Positions 51,852 through 60,900 of a stretch of 64,000 nt of DNA are shown piece after piece (the stretch's first letter is position 1; each line of letters opens with the position of its first letter). The stretch covers positions 1 to 64,000 of the forward strand of contig JAMCVK010000037.1 in assembly GCA_023475225.1 (NCBI GenBank), written 5' to 3'. The position numbers were made by a program, and so were the translations under genes. The notes beneath the pieces are model-generated. The model had not been told where the DNA came from. It was given only the letters and a program-made list of their open reading frames with translations, and searched no databases. The stretch comes from Chloroflexota bacterium. GTDB taxonomy: Bacteria; Chloroflexota; UBA6077; FW602-bin22; JAMCVK01.

Positions 51852-52721
51852 TTATTCCCGCTTTATGCGTGTCGTGTGCTGCTGACGTTCATCCCGCCGT
51901 GGCCAGAAGAGAGGAAGGGACTCGTAATAAGAGGGTGAGCGATAAAGTACACTTAAGACCTTCCGTAGTTTATCCTCATTGAGGTCTCGCACCAACCGTC
52001 CATTGTTAGCCAGAGAGATCGCCCCGCTCTCTTCCGAGACGATGATTGAGAGGGCATCGGTCTGTTCGGTTATGCCCACAGCGGCTCGGTGGCGTGTACC
52101 AAGCTGATAATTAACCGTATTTTCGGATAAGGGTAATACACAGCCAGCAGCCACGACCCGATCTCCCCGGATGATCACGGCGCCATCGTGTAGCGGTGAG
52201 TTGGGATAGAAAAGGGTCAGCAACAGCTCTGCTGATACAGTACCGTTGATCTCCACTCCGGTCTCAGTGTACTCCTGTAATCCTGTGCTCCGCTCCAGAA
52301 CGAGCAGGGCACCATAGCGTTGATCGGCCAGCTGCTGGCAGGCCCGGCTGACCTCATCGATAGATTTGGGGATAGCCAGTGCCCCCGGGATAGTGAAAGG
52401 ACGGTAGAATAGTCCTCGAAACCGTCCGATTCGTTCGACCGCCCTTCGCAGCTCAGGTTGGAAGATGATCAGTAAGGCGATGGAAAGAATGGGCAATGTA
52501 TTGCGCAGCAACCAGTTGAGCATAACCAGCTGAGGCAGACTGTTTACTATTAACACTGCCCCGAGCAGAAGAAATAAGCCATACAAGAGGGTCAGGGCGC
52601 TCGTTCCACGGAAAAGGCTGAGGACACCATATATGATTATGGCCACAAGCAGGATATCAATGACGCTCCAGACGCTCAGGCGCGCCAGTGTTGAGAAAAC
52701 GACCTGGATTAATTGAGGCAT
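51852..52721 (-). CDS. cdaA: Diadenylate cyclase CdaA
   Basis: The 289-residue protein has three membrane helices in the first 90 residues and a DAC domain with both catalytic motifs, LHDGAVII and GTRHRAAVG. It makes cyclic di-AMP from two ATP. Being 18 bases after argF and 4 before cdaR suggests an operon. c-di-AMP controls potassium and osmolyte balance in other bacteria. Confidence 0.95.
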   Translation of the reverse strand: MPQLIQVVFSTLARLSVWSVIDILLVAIIIYGVLSLFRGTSALTLLYGLFLLLGAVLIVNSLPQLVMLNWLLRNTLPILSIALLIIFQPELRRAVERIGRFRGLFYRPFTIPGALAIPKSIDEVSRACQQLADQRYGALLVLERSTGLQEYTETGVEINGTVSAELLLTLFYPNSPLHDGAVIIRGDRVVAAGCVLPLSENTVNYQLGTRHRAAVGITEQTDALSIIVSEESGAISLANNGRLVRDLNEDKLRKVLSVLYRSPSYYESLPLFWPRRDERQQHTTRIKRE

Positions 52722-53986: not shown

Positions 53987-55284
53987 TAGTGTCCCACAAA
54001 TTCGCAGTAGCGTTCTTTTTATTCAGGCTTTTCTTAAAGGGACAAGGAATGGGGCTCACCTACTTGTGTTAGACCCTTCAGTCTGGTTAGAAAACACAAG
54101 GAGGAGAGCCCGAGATGAAGGTAGCACAAAAGATTTTGGAGTGCAACAGTGCTAAAGAGGTGATAGAGCTAGTAGATTCGAAAGGCAAAGGCTAATCTGA
54201 GGGCATGGAAAAGGAGATTGCTTGAGGAGGCTTGAGAAAACCTGGTAGATAAATACCATGGCCCCAAATGGCTAAAGATTAGGGAAAGAGAACCCACTCC
54301 CTGGGCATGTCTAAAATGTGGTTCACGGGAAAGTAATCAGATTAAGAGAAATGGACATCATCGACGCTGCCTGGTGGTTGCTGAAGGTGTCATCCACCTA
54401 AGAGTCCCCCAGCTTGAGTGTCTTGATTGCGGCAGAGTAGTAGCCTTAAATGCCCTTTTCCTCCCCAAAAGAAAGAGGTACTGGATAGAGCTAGATCGGA
54501 GAATCACTGAGCTTTATCTCTGCGGGGCTAGCTATCGCCAGATTAAGGCGATACTAGAGCGGGTGATGGAGTCAGACTGTGGGTTGATGGGCTTATGGCA
54601 GCGCTTCCCGAAGATGGCCAGGAGGGCTTCATCCCACCATTGGGATGAGCCACTAAAGGTTTTTATATCTTGATGAGGCTTATACCAAGGTAAAAGGAAA
54701 GCCTTACTGGAGTCTATTGGCTTTAGGGGAGGGCCAAGATGGCCAAAGGGCTTATCTTGGGGCTGTCTTATCCAGGGATAAAAGCGCAGCTTCCTGGGTG
54801 AGCCTCCTTGAGGCCTTAGGGGTCCCCGATAGTGGCAAGGGATTATTAGTTATCCACGATGGTGACCAGGCGATTGCTTCCGCCTTAAGTTTGGTCTTGC
54901 CTGAAGCCAAAAGCCGCCTATGTGTCTGGCCTGAGCTCCACAATATCTTCCTTAAGGCAAGGGAACTATTTCCTAACGATCGAGAAAAGATAAAGCAGGT
55001 TGTTCAAATCGCTAAAATGAGGCTGCAAACTGGAGGACCGAAGACGACATCGCCTTTGGAAAGGGGTATAAAGGAGTAGCGGAGACGGACTAGACCGATG
55101 GACGGCTTCAAGTCGGTTATGGGAGCGGCTAACTTCTTAAGGATCTGGCTGGCTAAGGAAAATGCTAGAATGGCGAAGGAAGACTGGCTTAAGGCGGTGG
55201 TAAACTAAAAAAGTTAGACTGAGAGGTTAACACAAGAGAGATGACCGGCTTCTTTAAGGAAAAGCCTGAATAAAGGATACACTA
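53987..55284. mobile_element. Degraded insertion sequence with long inverted repeats
   Basis: Left and right ends share inverted blocks: TTTATTCAGGCTTTTCTTAAAGG-type (54018-54040 with 55252-55274, one indel) and CTTGTGTTAGACC...CAGTCTGG (54063-54089 with 55213-55236). Outer ends TAGTGT (53987) and ACACTA (55279-55284) mark approximate borders, about 1.3 kb. The inner gene is a disrupted mutator-type transposase. The element abuts the promoter of the moa operon. Confidence 0.75.
54115..55208 (+). pseudogene. Transposase, mutator (IS256/ISLre2-like) type, broken
   Basis: Pieces of one transposase are spread over frames: an N-terminal zinc ribbon (CLKCGS...CLDCGR), then YLDEAYTKVKGK with the first catalytic Asp, IHDGDQAIASAL with the second, and SPLERGIKE...RRRTRPMDGF with the Glu. 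Several stops lie before 54374, a frameshift near 54670 splits LDEAY from the upstream part, and a TAG at 55077-55079 interrupts the C-terminus in frame. The element can no longer move by itself. Confidence 0.85.
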
Positions 55285-55301: not shown

Positions 55302-55331
55302 TTGACCAGGCCACAGTCAACGTGCTATATT
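55302..55331 (+). promoter_or_regulatory. Promoter of the moa operon
   Basis: TTGACC (55302-55307), an 18-bp spacer and TATATT (55326-55331), 18 bases beyond the insertion-sequence border. Transcription would start at about 55338, just before the riboswitch-like fold. Confidence 0.55.
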
Positions 55332-55345
55332 AGACCAGCACTTGT

Positions 55346-55490
55346 TTCTCCGAGCCGTTTGGCCTACAGGATTTCCCAGGGCCGGTGGCCACGTGGATGG
55401 CCTATACATCCCGCTGGTTCAGGGGGAAACGCCTGAGCCACCCATCTTCGGAAAGGAGAACGCTCGGCTAGAGCCGTATGATTGTTCGCT
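55346..55490 (+). promoter_or_regulatory. Probable molybdenum/tungsten cofactor (Moco) riboswitch
   Basis: The leader carries CTCCGAGCC, GGCCTACAGG, CCGGTGGCC, GGGGGAAACGCCTGAGCCA and GGAAAGGAGAACGCTCGG, with CCGAG at the 5' side pairing with CTCGG at the 3' side to close it. These blocks and their order agree with my recollection of the moco RNA motif (Rfam RF01055). An intrinsic terminator follows at once, and moaA and moaC are downstream. Together with the promoter and terminator this explains most of the 409-base stretch before 55694. Not computed against the covariance model. Confidence 0.7.
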
Positions 55491-55492
55491 GA

Positions 55493-55526
55493 GCAGCATC
55501 TCCTAGCAGGAAGATGCTGCTTTTTT
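55493..55526 (+). terminator. Intrinsic terminator of the riboswitch
   Basis: GCAGCATCT (55493-55501) pairs with AGATGCTGC (55512-55520) and is followed by TTTTTT (55521-55526): a textbook stem with U-tract. Its position right after the aptamer suggests ligand-controlled attenuation of the moa operon. Confidence 0.85.
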
Positions 55527-55693
55527 CATCAGGACCTGGAGTTGCCTGTGATTCCCTAACCCATCGGCTACATCGCCGGCTGGTGCGGAGCTCTGGTGGC
55601 CGATGGGGTGATTTTCTGCCAGGCGGTCGCCTGGTTTGGAATCAAAACCTGATCAACGGCGAGTGAGCCCGCCGCATCGCGGGGAGGGCATCA

Positions 55694-56447: not shown

Positions 56448-57464
56448 ATGACCTGTTTACGTGATGGCTTCAATCGGCCCATCTCTTACCTGCGCATCTC
56501 GGTGACCGATCGCTGTAACTTCCGCTGCCTTTATTGCATGCCCCTGGAGGGAATAGCCAGTCTATCCCACGCTGAGATCCTCAGTTATGAGGAGATGGCT
56601 GCGATCGTGCGGGCAGCGGCCGAGCTGGGCATCCGCAAGGTCCGCTTAACTGGCGGTGAACCACTGGTGAGACTTGGTCTGACCAATTTTATTGCTATGT
56701 TAAGGGCCATGCCGGGAATTGATGACCTCTCCTTGACTACTAACGGTTTCTTGCTCAGCCGCTACGCCGCTGACTTGAAGAGAGCCGGACTTAAACGCAT
56801 CAACGTCAGTTTGGATACATTGAGACCCGATCGCTTCCAGCAGATCACCCGGCTCGGCCGACTGGAAGAGGTGCTCAAGGGCATCGAGACTGCCCAAGCG
56901 GTGGGGCTGCAGCCGCTGAAGATTAACACCGTGGTCATCGATGGTTTCAACGCTGATGAGCTGATCGACATCGCCACGCTCACCATCGAGAGAAATTGGC
57001 ACATCCGCTTTATCGAGTTGATGCCGGTGGGAGGCACAGCGGACTGGGCCCAGGAGAGATACATCCCCCTGGACGAGATAAAGCGGCGGATAGAGGAGGC
57101 CTTGGGTCACCTGGAGCCGCACCATCCGGCGACCAACACTGGAAACGAGCCGAGGTTCAATCTTGATGGCCCAGCCCGTTACTACCGCCTGCCGAGGGCC
57201 AAAGGCACGATCGGTTTCATTAGCCCCATCAGCTGTCAATTCTGTGCTCAATGCAATCGTCTTCGCTTGACGGCCGACGGTCGCCTCCGTCCCTGCCTGC
57301 TGAGTGAGCAAGAGGTTGACTTGCGTAGTCCCCTCCGCCAGGGGGCCACCATAGACGATATCAAACAACTGATCAGGCAGGCTGCTCAGATGAAACCGTT
57401 GGGGCATCGCTTGAACGAACGCGTTGTCCCTGAGGATCGTTCAATGTACCAGATTGGAGGCTGA
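56448..57464 (+). CDS. moaA: GTP 3',8-cyclase MoaA
   Basis: The 338-residue radical SAM enzyme has the N-terminal cluster CNFRCLYC (C23, C27, C30) and the C-terminal cluster [16 protein letters not shown]...C near residue 264. It begins molybdenum cofactor synthesis from GTP. The usual C-terminal GG of MoaA is present (QIGG). It is co-transcribed with moaC, five bases downstream. Confidence 0.96.
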
Positions 57465-57468
57465 CGGA

Positions 57469-57972
57469 ATGAGCAAGGGTGAGCGGGCGGATGGTTTGAC
57501 CCATCTCGATACTACAGGCCGGCCGCGTATGGTAGACGTCAGTGAAAAGCCCGACACGCTGCGGGTGGCTACAGCGGTAGGGGAGATCGCCATGCAGCCG
57601 GCCACATTGACAGCGATCAAGGAAGGGAAGACGAAGAAGGGCGATGTCCTGGCCACCGCTCAACTGGCCGCCGTGATGGCCGCAAAGAGAGCCTGGGAGA
57701 TGATCCCCCTGTGTCACCCACTGCTTCTCACCTCGGTTGAGGTGGGCTTCGAGATCGACGAGGAGAGCAGTACGGTCGAGATCACTGCCACAGTGAAGAC
57801 CAGCGGAAAAACGGGTGTGGAGATGGAAGCCTTGACTGCGGTGAGCGTAGGCGCACTGACAATCTACGATATGTGTAAAGCTATCGATCGCTCTATGGTG
57901 ATCGGCAACATCCGCCTGATACGTAAGAGTGGCGGACGAAGCGGCGACCTCGTCCTGGAGGGAGCCGGGTAA
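57469..57972 (+). CDS. moaC: Cyclic pyranopterin monophosphate synthase MoaC
   Basis: The 167-residue protein has [26 protein letters not shown] and [21 protein letters not shown], conserved in MoaC. It makes cyclic pyranopterin from MoaA's product. ATG 57469 lies 8 bases after TTGGAGG; an upstream in-frame start at 57424 would overlap moaA and is unlikely. MoaD, MoaE and MoeA are not in the window unless the fused carrier-E1 at 20688 serves as MoaD/MoeB. Confidence 0.95.
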
Positions 57973-57973
57973 T

Positions 57974-60900
57974 GTGGTGAGACTGCGGCGCTATTGGCCC
58001 GACTTACGGTCGTTGGCTCTCCTTCTGGTCCTGATCCTTGTATTCTATCGCCAGACAGCTCTTTCGCCGCGTATCCTCATCGGTTACGACATCTTCACCT
58101 ACTTCTATCCGAACGAGGCCTACGCCGCCGAAAGGCTACACAGCGGTCAATTGCCCCTGTGGAACCCCTATCTGTTCACGGGCGTGCCCTTTTTAGCTAA
58201 CATCCAGACAGGGATATTCTATCCACTGAATCTGCTCTTCCTCTTATTTTTTGTGCCTCGGGCCTACGTCTACTCGGTAGTCCTCCACGTCTTTCTGGCT
58301 GGTTGTTTTATGTATCTTTTCGCCAGAGTTTCGCTGCACCTGCAGCGCTGGGCTGCTTTTCTCGCCGCTGTCGTCCTCATGTTCGGTGGCTTCACCTCTT
58401 CCCTGGTCGGACACCTCAACCAGTTACAGGCGGCAACCTGGCTTCCTCTCCTTTTTCTCCTCACTGATCTAACCTATCGGGAGCGACGTCCCCTCCTGGC
58501 CTTGGCCACTGGAGCGGTGCTTGCCCTGCAATTGCTGGCCGGGCACATGCAGGAATCCTATTTGACCCTCTGCGCCTTAAGCGGATTGGTGCTTTTCTAC
58601 GGGGGGAAGGCCCTCTGGGGGGGATACCACCCCTCACACAGTGAGGAAAACAGTGGGGAACATCCCCAGTCCGCTGCTAGAGAGGGTGTCTTGCCTTTGG
58701 GCGAGCATCTCCGGGGGAAGGAATCCAGGACGGATCGATGGCGAACAGCGCTCGGTTCGGTGATCAGTAAGGAGATAAGCGGCCTTGCTCTGGTCGGTGT
58801 GAGCCTGCTCCTGGGATTTGGCTTGGCCGCTGTACAGCTCTGGCCGACCTATGAGCTGGCCAACCTTTCCATCCGGGCCGGGGGACTAACCTATAAGGAA
58901 GCGGTTTCCTTTTCCTTACCTCCCTGGCTGATCCTTAAGAGCCTACTGCCACCTGTCTTCGATGCACCCATCTTCAGCGAATATTGGGGCTACGTCGGCG
59001 TCTGTGGACTCATCCTGGCCGCATTGGCAGTAGTCATGAGGCCACGGGACAAGCACGTGCTCTTCTTCGCTCTGCTGGCTTTGCTCTCTCTTTTCCTGGC
59101 CTTGGGACAGTTCAATCCTCTCTATCCCTATCTCTACAAGATCTTGCCTGGGCTCGCCCTCTTCCGAGTGCCCGCTCGTTGGCTCTTTCTGTACACCTTC
59201 GCCATGGCCGCATTAGCTGGAATCGCCCTGCATATCCTCCTGGAAGGGACTCCATCTGCACGGTTGGGCTGGCCCGGTCGTGCTCATCCGGCTGTTAGAG
59301 TCATTCTGCGGCTGGCCATCCTAGGGGCATTGGCACTCTTGCCCATACTGGCCTACGTAGCCTTACGCTTGCCCTACCCGTTGGAGACGCCATCGGCCCC
59401 GACGGCCATCGTCTGGCTGGTCAGTGGTGCCTCTGCCTTGCTCCTCATCATCTGGGCCCTCTCGACCCCAGCCAGCCGTCTGGCCATAGGGGCGCTGGTC
59501 TGTCTACTCTATGGTGAGTTGCTCCTCAGCAGCCAGAATCTTGATCTGAATCGCCCTAACCTCCCGGAAGCCTACTCTTCCCTTCGTCCGGCTGTCGCTC
59601 ATCTTTTAGCTGATCCCGGCATCTACCGCGTCCTCCCTTTGAGCGATAACACCTTCGACCCGGGTGACCTGAGAGAGCAAAGGGGGATGTTGAATGCTGT
59701 GCTCTCACCCCAGGCTGTCTATGACTACATCGTTGCTCTGAAACAAAAGGAGACGCTGATGCCTAACCTTCCCCTACGCTATCACATCGCCAGCATCGAT
59801 GGCTATGACGGCGGGGTTTTACCTTTGGAACGCTATGTGGCCTTCAAACGTCTTTTCCCCCTTTCCCGAAAGGATGCTCCTGATGCCCGTCTGCGGGAAC
59901 AGCTGGAGACGATACCGGATCCCTCTCTCTTGGGCTGGCTCAATGTGAAATACATCCTGATGGATCGGCTGCGTGATGTTTGGGCGGATGGCGTCTATTA
60001 CGACCTGGCGCTCAGGCGAACTGTTGGGCCAGCTGGAACCAGGGATCTGACACTCGAGCACCTACCAGATTTTGAGACCACCTCCATCGGGCTGGTCTCC
60101 TACCTCAGCGGAGCATCAGGTTTGCCCGATGGCACCACGGTGGCCACCATTTCGGTGACTGATAGCGACGGAAAGGTATATACCGCACCGTTACAGGCCG
60201 GGGTGCAAACGGCTGAGGGCAGGTACAATGCCACGGTCGGGCATCGACCAGCACGGCGGGTGATGGCTCCGACGAACGATCCCCAGGTCTGGGACTATCA
60301 GTCCCAGATCCCCCTGCTCAAGCCTATCTTCCCCAAACGGCTCACCATCTCCTCCGTGGCTGCCACAGCCGACCTTCACCTGAGGGGGATCAGCCTCATC
60401 GATGATAGGACGGGGGCCAGCCGGCCCGTTGTTCTCGATAATTTTCTGCGCATCGTCCACCTGGGAGACGTCAAGATCTATCGGAACCTGGCTGCTTTGC
60501 CTCGCGCCTTCCTTGTGCCTGAGGTCGAGCTGGTCAGCAATGATGCTGCGGCCTTAGATTGGCTGCGCCGTCCCACCTTTCGACCCCGGGAACAGGCCGT
60601 GATCGTTCAGGACGATTGGCCGGGAGGCGACCAAAACCTATCCGGGGCTGGGACTGATCAAGCGACCGTAGATATTCTGGAGTATTCGCCCGAAAGAATC
60701 GTCTTGCATATGAGGTCGGCACACGCGGGGGTGCTCGTTCTGACCGACTCTTACTACCCAGGTTGGCGAGCCTGGGTCGATGGACATGAGCAGCGTATCA
60801 TGCGGGTCGATTACCTCTTTAGGGGGCTTGTGTTGAAAGACGGTGAACACACGGTCGAATTTCGCTACGAGCCCCGCCCCCTTTTAATAGGACTCCTTCT

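Follow-up and report, generated by a model that had tools for sequence, protein, structure and literature searches.

The locus

The window, by which we mean the whole 64,000-nucleotide stretch that we analyzed, contains five genes on the forward strand behind a leader with a predicted promoter, a riboswitch aptamer, and an intrinsic terminator (Table 1). The genes encode a calcineurin-like metallophosphoesterase, MoaA and MoaC of molybdenum cofactor (Moco) synthesis, a large YfhO-type membrane protein, and a smaller AmaP-like membrane protein. The first-pass annotation had described a promoter, an aptamer, a terminator, and Moco genes in the correct order, and we found all of these, down to the start codon of the first gene. 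As it had also claimed, the first controlled gene is a metallophosphoesterase, which lies directly before moaA. All of the genes that it named are present, but two of the names, YfcE and AmaP, should be weakened to "-like." The phosphoesterase matches the Pfam calcineurin-like domain but scores 52.0 against TIGR00040, just under the cut-off of 56.25, and the AmaP-like protein falls just below the cut-off of the NCBIfam equivalog NF033218. The closest solved chains to the phosphoesterase are 3rqz and 3qfm. The start of yfhO is most likely the GTG at 57974, directly after the moaC stop codon, rather than 57929.

Table 1. Features of the riboswitch locus. Positions are those of the window.
Feature	Position	Strand	Evidence or remarks
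Decayed insertion sequence, Mutator/MULE-type transposase remnants	54006..55284	.	not part of the switch
Predicted sigma-70 promoter TTGACC-18-TATATT, TG before -10	55302..55331	+	promoter scan; recurring layout in relatives
Moco riboswitch aptamer (RF01055)	55336..55474	+	cmscan 64.2 bits, gathering score 36; pair list; P4 covariation
P1 core	55346-55351 with 55455-55460		
P2	55354-55389		
P3	55395-55411		55395-55399 pairs with 55407-55411, 5 bp
P4 with GAAA loop	55415-55440		
P5	55441-55451		55441-55442 pairs with 55450-55451
Conserved GGAAAGGAG	55450-55458		
Predicted antiterminator, 5' side	55454..55474	+	overlaps P1 3' strand
Predicted antiterminator, 3' side	55484..55504	+	overlaps terminator 5' arm
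Intrinsic terminator	hairpin 55491-55522, U-tract to 55526	+	about -20 kcal/mol
YfcE-like calcineurin-like metallophosphoesterase, 247 aa	55694..56437	+	PF12850 87.5 bits, PF00149 47.1 bits
moaA, GTP 3',8-cyclase	56448..57464	+	TIGR02666 389.7 bits, cut-off 284
moaC, cyclic pyranopterin monophosphate synthase	57469..57972	+	PF01967 199.3 bits; TIGR00581 212.3 bits
yfhO-type GT-C membrane glycosyltransferase (by predicted fold), 1003 aa	57974..60985	+	PF09586 85.6 bits, cut-off 28.5
AmaP-like membrane protein, 183 aa	60985..61536	+	NF033218 46.1 bits, cut-off 55

Upstream of the leader, between it and an OTC gene, is a decayed insertion sequence with imperfect terminal inverted repeats and a frame that is broken by stops. 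Two further copies, which lie on contigs C5 and C10 of the same genome, diverge at its end points. The OTC gene is adjoined by a gene for a CdaA-type diadenylate cyclase (51852-52721, reverse strand).

A Moco riboswitch at the predicted start of the transcript

The Rfam family of Moco riboswitches, RF01055, matches the leader over its full length (model positions 1-135 of 135, not truncated) in a covariance-model scan, with an E-value of 3.9e-13 for the whole window or 4.5e-15 for 751 bases. It is the only Rfam match at the gathering threshold across the 64 kb, and with 64.2 bits against a threshold of 36, the claim of a Moco-type riboswitch stands by a wide margin. The conserved blocks CUCCGAG and GGAAAGGAG are both present, as are P1 through P5. 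The first-pass annotation had proposed to judge the element by structural conservation in relatives as well, and we see this when 15 aptamers, drawn from this genome and from other Chloroflexota, are aligned: compensatory changes on both sides occur at five base pairs, all of them in P4. The leader (55325-55530) folds at -79.6 kcal/mol, versus -65.9 kcal/mol for shuffled sequences (standard deviation 4.6; z = -2.96), and just 2 of 200 shuffles did better. The folding models that we used are without tertiary contacts or pseudoknots, and their best unconstrained fold of the leader differs from the full consensus aptamer. The element is a genuine Moco riboswitch, of a known class and from an uncultured member of the Chloroflexota, a phylum that the abstract of the paper of 2008 on this class does not list.

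The aptamer does have one weak spot. P4 keeps its GAAA loop, but the tetraloop receptor in P2 is degenerate and the canonical CCUAA...UAUGG is not found there, which might weaken the folding of the aptamer. In the survey of Regulski et al. 2008 (PMC2408646), all but five of 176 RNAs had GAAA, and two GAAA-bearing RNAs that lack the receptor are natural exceptions. A related locus (L037, on contig C87 of genome G007, where the riboswitch spans 931-1065 on the reversed strand) has GCAA in place of the GAAA loop and no visible receptor, which is the same correlation that is given in PMC2408646.

The ligand is presumably Moco itself. RF01055 spans both Moco sensors and the proposed sensors of the tungsten cofactor (Tuco), and another genome from the same order (G006) has a short RF01055 copy, apparently without P3, before a PBP_like_2 solute-binding protein. 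(This copy, L023, is 121 nt long, lies at 1002-1122 of contig C31, and would fit the proposed Tuco type.) We consider it quite unlikely that the element in the window is a Tuco sensor. According to PMC2408646, the presence of P3 marks Moco sensors, while forms that lack P3 are of the Tuco type; the copy in the window carries a 5-bp P3, so it belongs to the Moco type. Also, the genome's other RF01055 copy precedes modA-modB-modC, and modA scores above its cut-off. That second copy (G000:C25:31821-31981, L021) is of the same class, scores 53.2 bits, and likewise has a promoter and a terminator; it differs in preceding a molybdate-type ABC transporter and in having a longer P3 region. The genome also has four matches to molybdopterin oxidoreductases and three to MoeA, so this bacterium probably makes and uses Moco.

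Transcription is predicted to begin near 55338, which would place the aptamer at the extreme 5' end of the transcript. Promoter-like sites are no more common in this region than expected by chance (2 found versus 2.8 expected). The position and form of the promoter do recur 5' of the Moco aptamers of relatives: the sites are TTGACA-18-TATATT in G004, TTGACG-18-TACATT in G009, and TTGACA-18-TATAAT before this genome's own modABC copy. We considered whether the neighboring insertion sequence had donated the promoter and rejected the idea, as the insertion sequence ends at 55284, 17 nt before the -35 box, and relatives share the promoter form.

A terminator and a predicted antiterminator

Folding of growing transcripts suggests how the aptamer could control the terminator. 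The predicted antiterminator pairs 55454-55459 with 55499-55504, 55462-55468 with 55488-55494, and 55471-55474 with 55484-55487, and the UCUCC in its 3' side copies the 5' strand of P1. Because the antiterminator takes up the terminator's 5' arm as well as the P1 3' strand, it would exclude both P1 and the terminator. For transcripts that end at 55506-55514, the free RNA favors the antiterminator over folds with P1 by 3.5-4.8 kcal/mol; once the transcript extends to 55518 or beyond, P1 together with the terminator gives the better fold.

We compared the energy of the duplex that the P1 3' strand forms with the terminator 5' arm to the energies obtained with dinucleotide shuffles of the terminator arm. 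In the window, the duplex is stronger than 99.6% of shuffles (p = 0.004). Combining 13 loci gives a Fisher p of about 1e-11, which is optimistic given that the loci are related. In a set of 15 other loci from the wider phylum, which we chose after the antiterminator hypothesis was fixed, the complementarity is weaker (Fisher p = 0.008, with 2 of 15 loci individually below 0.05), and shared descent inflates this result as well. The antiterminator is a thermodynamic prediction with comparative support.

We propose that the switch works as follows. The polymerase would start near 55338, and the aptamer would emerge first. Without Moco, AUCUCCU in the 5' arm of the terminator and the bases near it would capture the 3' strand of P1, and the antiterminator that forms would allow read-through into the five-gene operon. 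With Moco bound, P1 would be held closed, which would leave the 5' arm of the terminator free to form the hairpin and to stop the polymerase near 55526. Stabilization of P1 by Moco would thus favor termination. Overall, we put the probability that this Moco-sensing riboswitch is a transcriptional OFF switch for the five-gene operon at roughly 0.87. The antiterminator model is concrete enough to be tested on one template.

The OFF direction in vivo is what the predicted structures imply. One could imagine a genetic ON switch in which Moco binding prevents termination, but we think that this is very improbable. The P1 3' strand is part of the predicted antiterminator, so stabilizing P1 would free the terminator; the products of the genes synthesize the cofactor; and in E. 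coli, the element ahead of moaA acts as a repressor in the presence of Moco (PMC2408646).

The leader of moaABCDE in E. coli (RF01055; PMC2408646) shares with the window the consensus sequence, P1 through P5 with P3 included, the GAAA loop of P4, the placement before moa genes, and predicted repression by the cofactor. In E. coli, however, a ribosome-binding site within P1 has been proposed, whereas the window has an intrinsic terminator and an antiterminator. The two also differ in that the receptor in P2 is degenerate in the window, and in gene content: in the window a phosphoesterase comes first and the glycosyltransferase and AmaP-like genes come last. Terminator-type platforms have already been described for this class of riboswitch, and our locus adds a well-resolved example from an uncultured Chloroflexota. 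We also asked if a second regulator might lie in the leader after the terminator. That part of the leader folds moderately well, but with a z of just -1.8 we did not accept it.

How far does the regulon extend?

The first-pass annotation had suggested that the operon may continue into the YfhO-like and AmaP-like genes. The successive gaps between the five genes are 10, 4, 1, and -1 nt (the amaP-like gene starts in a TAATG and overlaps the yfhO stop codon by one base), and a convergent gene lies beyond 61580. From this spacing, the genes are very probably co-transcribed to 61.5 kb. If the five genes do share one transcript, then the level of Moco would control the phosphoesterase, the YfhO-type protein, and the AmaP-like protein along with moaA and moaC. 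This would be a modestly unusual regulon: it includes a metal-dependent phosphoesterase and a likely cell-surface sugar-transferase, and neither usually has ties to molybdenum.

Alternatively, the riboswitch might be real but control only the phosphoesterase, moaA, and moaC, with yfhO and amaP as mere neighbors that have their own promoter. We view this as possible but distinctly less probable. It is true that yfhO is widespread without moaC, and that amaP is often its partner elsewhere in the Chloroflexota. Also, 8 of the 12 relatives from the same order have no match to RF01055, yet most of them keep moaC next to yfhO, and in several of these, moaC and yfhO come after a glycosyltransferase gene rather than after moaA. 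On the other hand, gaps of 1 and -1 nt flank yfhO, the promoter scan found no sigma-70-like site ahead of it, and two further genomes (G009 and G007) have the riboswitch, moaA, moaC, and yfhO in a row. We retain the five-gene operon, and we predict that the phosphoesterase and the AmaP-like protein follow the level of Moco.

The phosphoesterase seems to be peculiar to this locus. Its family is common, occurring in 358 of 400 genomes in a phylum-wide search. In the 48 loci from relatives that we checked, however, neither moaA nor moaC lies within about 1.5 kb of it, so we rejected a general link between the phosphoesterase and Moco. Our first search found none of the named relatives, which are uncultured Chloroflexi, with the phosphoesterase, and our search of the literature, among the papers available to us, found no paper that joins a Moco riboswitch, moaA, and a metallophosphoesterase. 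At the phosphoesterase's place, directly after the riboswitch, G009 and G007 instead have a TrmO-FmdE fusion.

The link between moaC and a glycosyltransferase

The AlphaFold model of the YfhO-type protein (mean pLDDT of 88.1) matches AftD, ArnT, Emb proteins, and PglB in Foldseek searches, with E-values of 1e-9 to 1e-3. By its predicted fold it is a GT-C glycosyltransferase, and it is likely to be a cell-surface sugar-transferase. The YfhO proteins of Bacillus subtilis and Staphylococcus aureus act with CsbB and GtcA to glycosylate lipoteichoic acid (PMC8035078). The protein in the window shares the Pfam YfhO domain and the predicted GT-C fold with that system; it differs in belonging to a Chloroflexota subfamily that is linked to moaC, and it is only weakly similar to the NCBIfam model PgfM2. 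We saw no feature of the protein that points to Moco chemistry.

Among the 13 genomes of the order that we analyzed, this one included, moaC is present in 12, and in nine of them, again including this one, yfhO lies directly 3' of moaC. (Seven of these loci, L092-L098 from G012, G005, G001, G008, G002, G011, and G010, have moaC followed directly by the orthologous glycosyltransferase gene.) In two more, G006 and G007, other genes separate moaC from a yfhO that begins no more than about 1.5 kb downstream; in G007 these include a MOSC-domain gene. Ten YfhO proteins that are linked to moaC, including the copy in the window, form one group in the tree with a support of 98, while the copy in G007 is a different paralog. 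Several members of the order have a glycosyltransferase gene, rather than moaA, before moaC (family 4 in the one case that we tested). Outside of the order, in other Chloroflexota, the gene after yfhO is often amaP-like instead. Judging from this gene order, the extra genes of the operon are not all accidental passengers, and a conserved association ties moaC to a GT-C glycosyltransferase gene.

It is tempting to suppose that the supply of Moco directly tunes envelope glycosylation in part of the order, with surface glycans or membrane stress proteins following molybdenum status wherever a moaC-adjacent yfhO is under a Moco riboswitch. We regard this idea as doubtful. Of 400 sampled Chloroflexota genomes, 52 carry RF01055, as do 5 of the 13 members of the order. 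A Moco riboswitch precedes moaA, moaC, and yfhO in three genomes: this one, G009, and G007. Finally, the gene that comes first after the riboswitch recurs in type among some relatives: it is the TrmO-FmdE fusion in L026 and L037, and FmdE-domain genes come first in L031 and L035.
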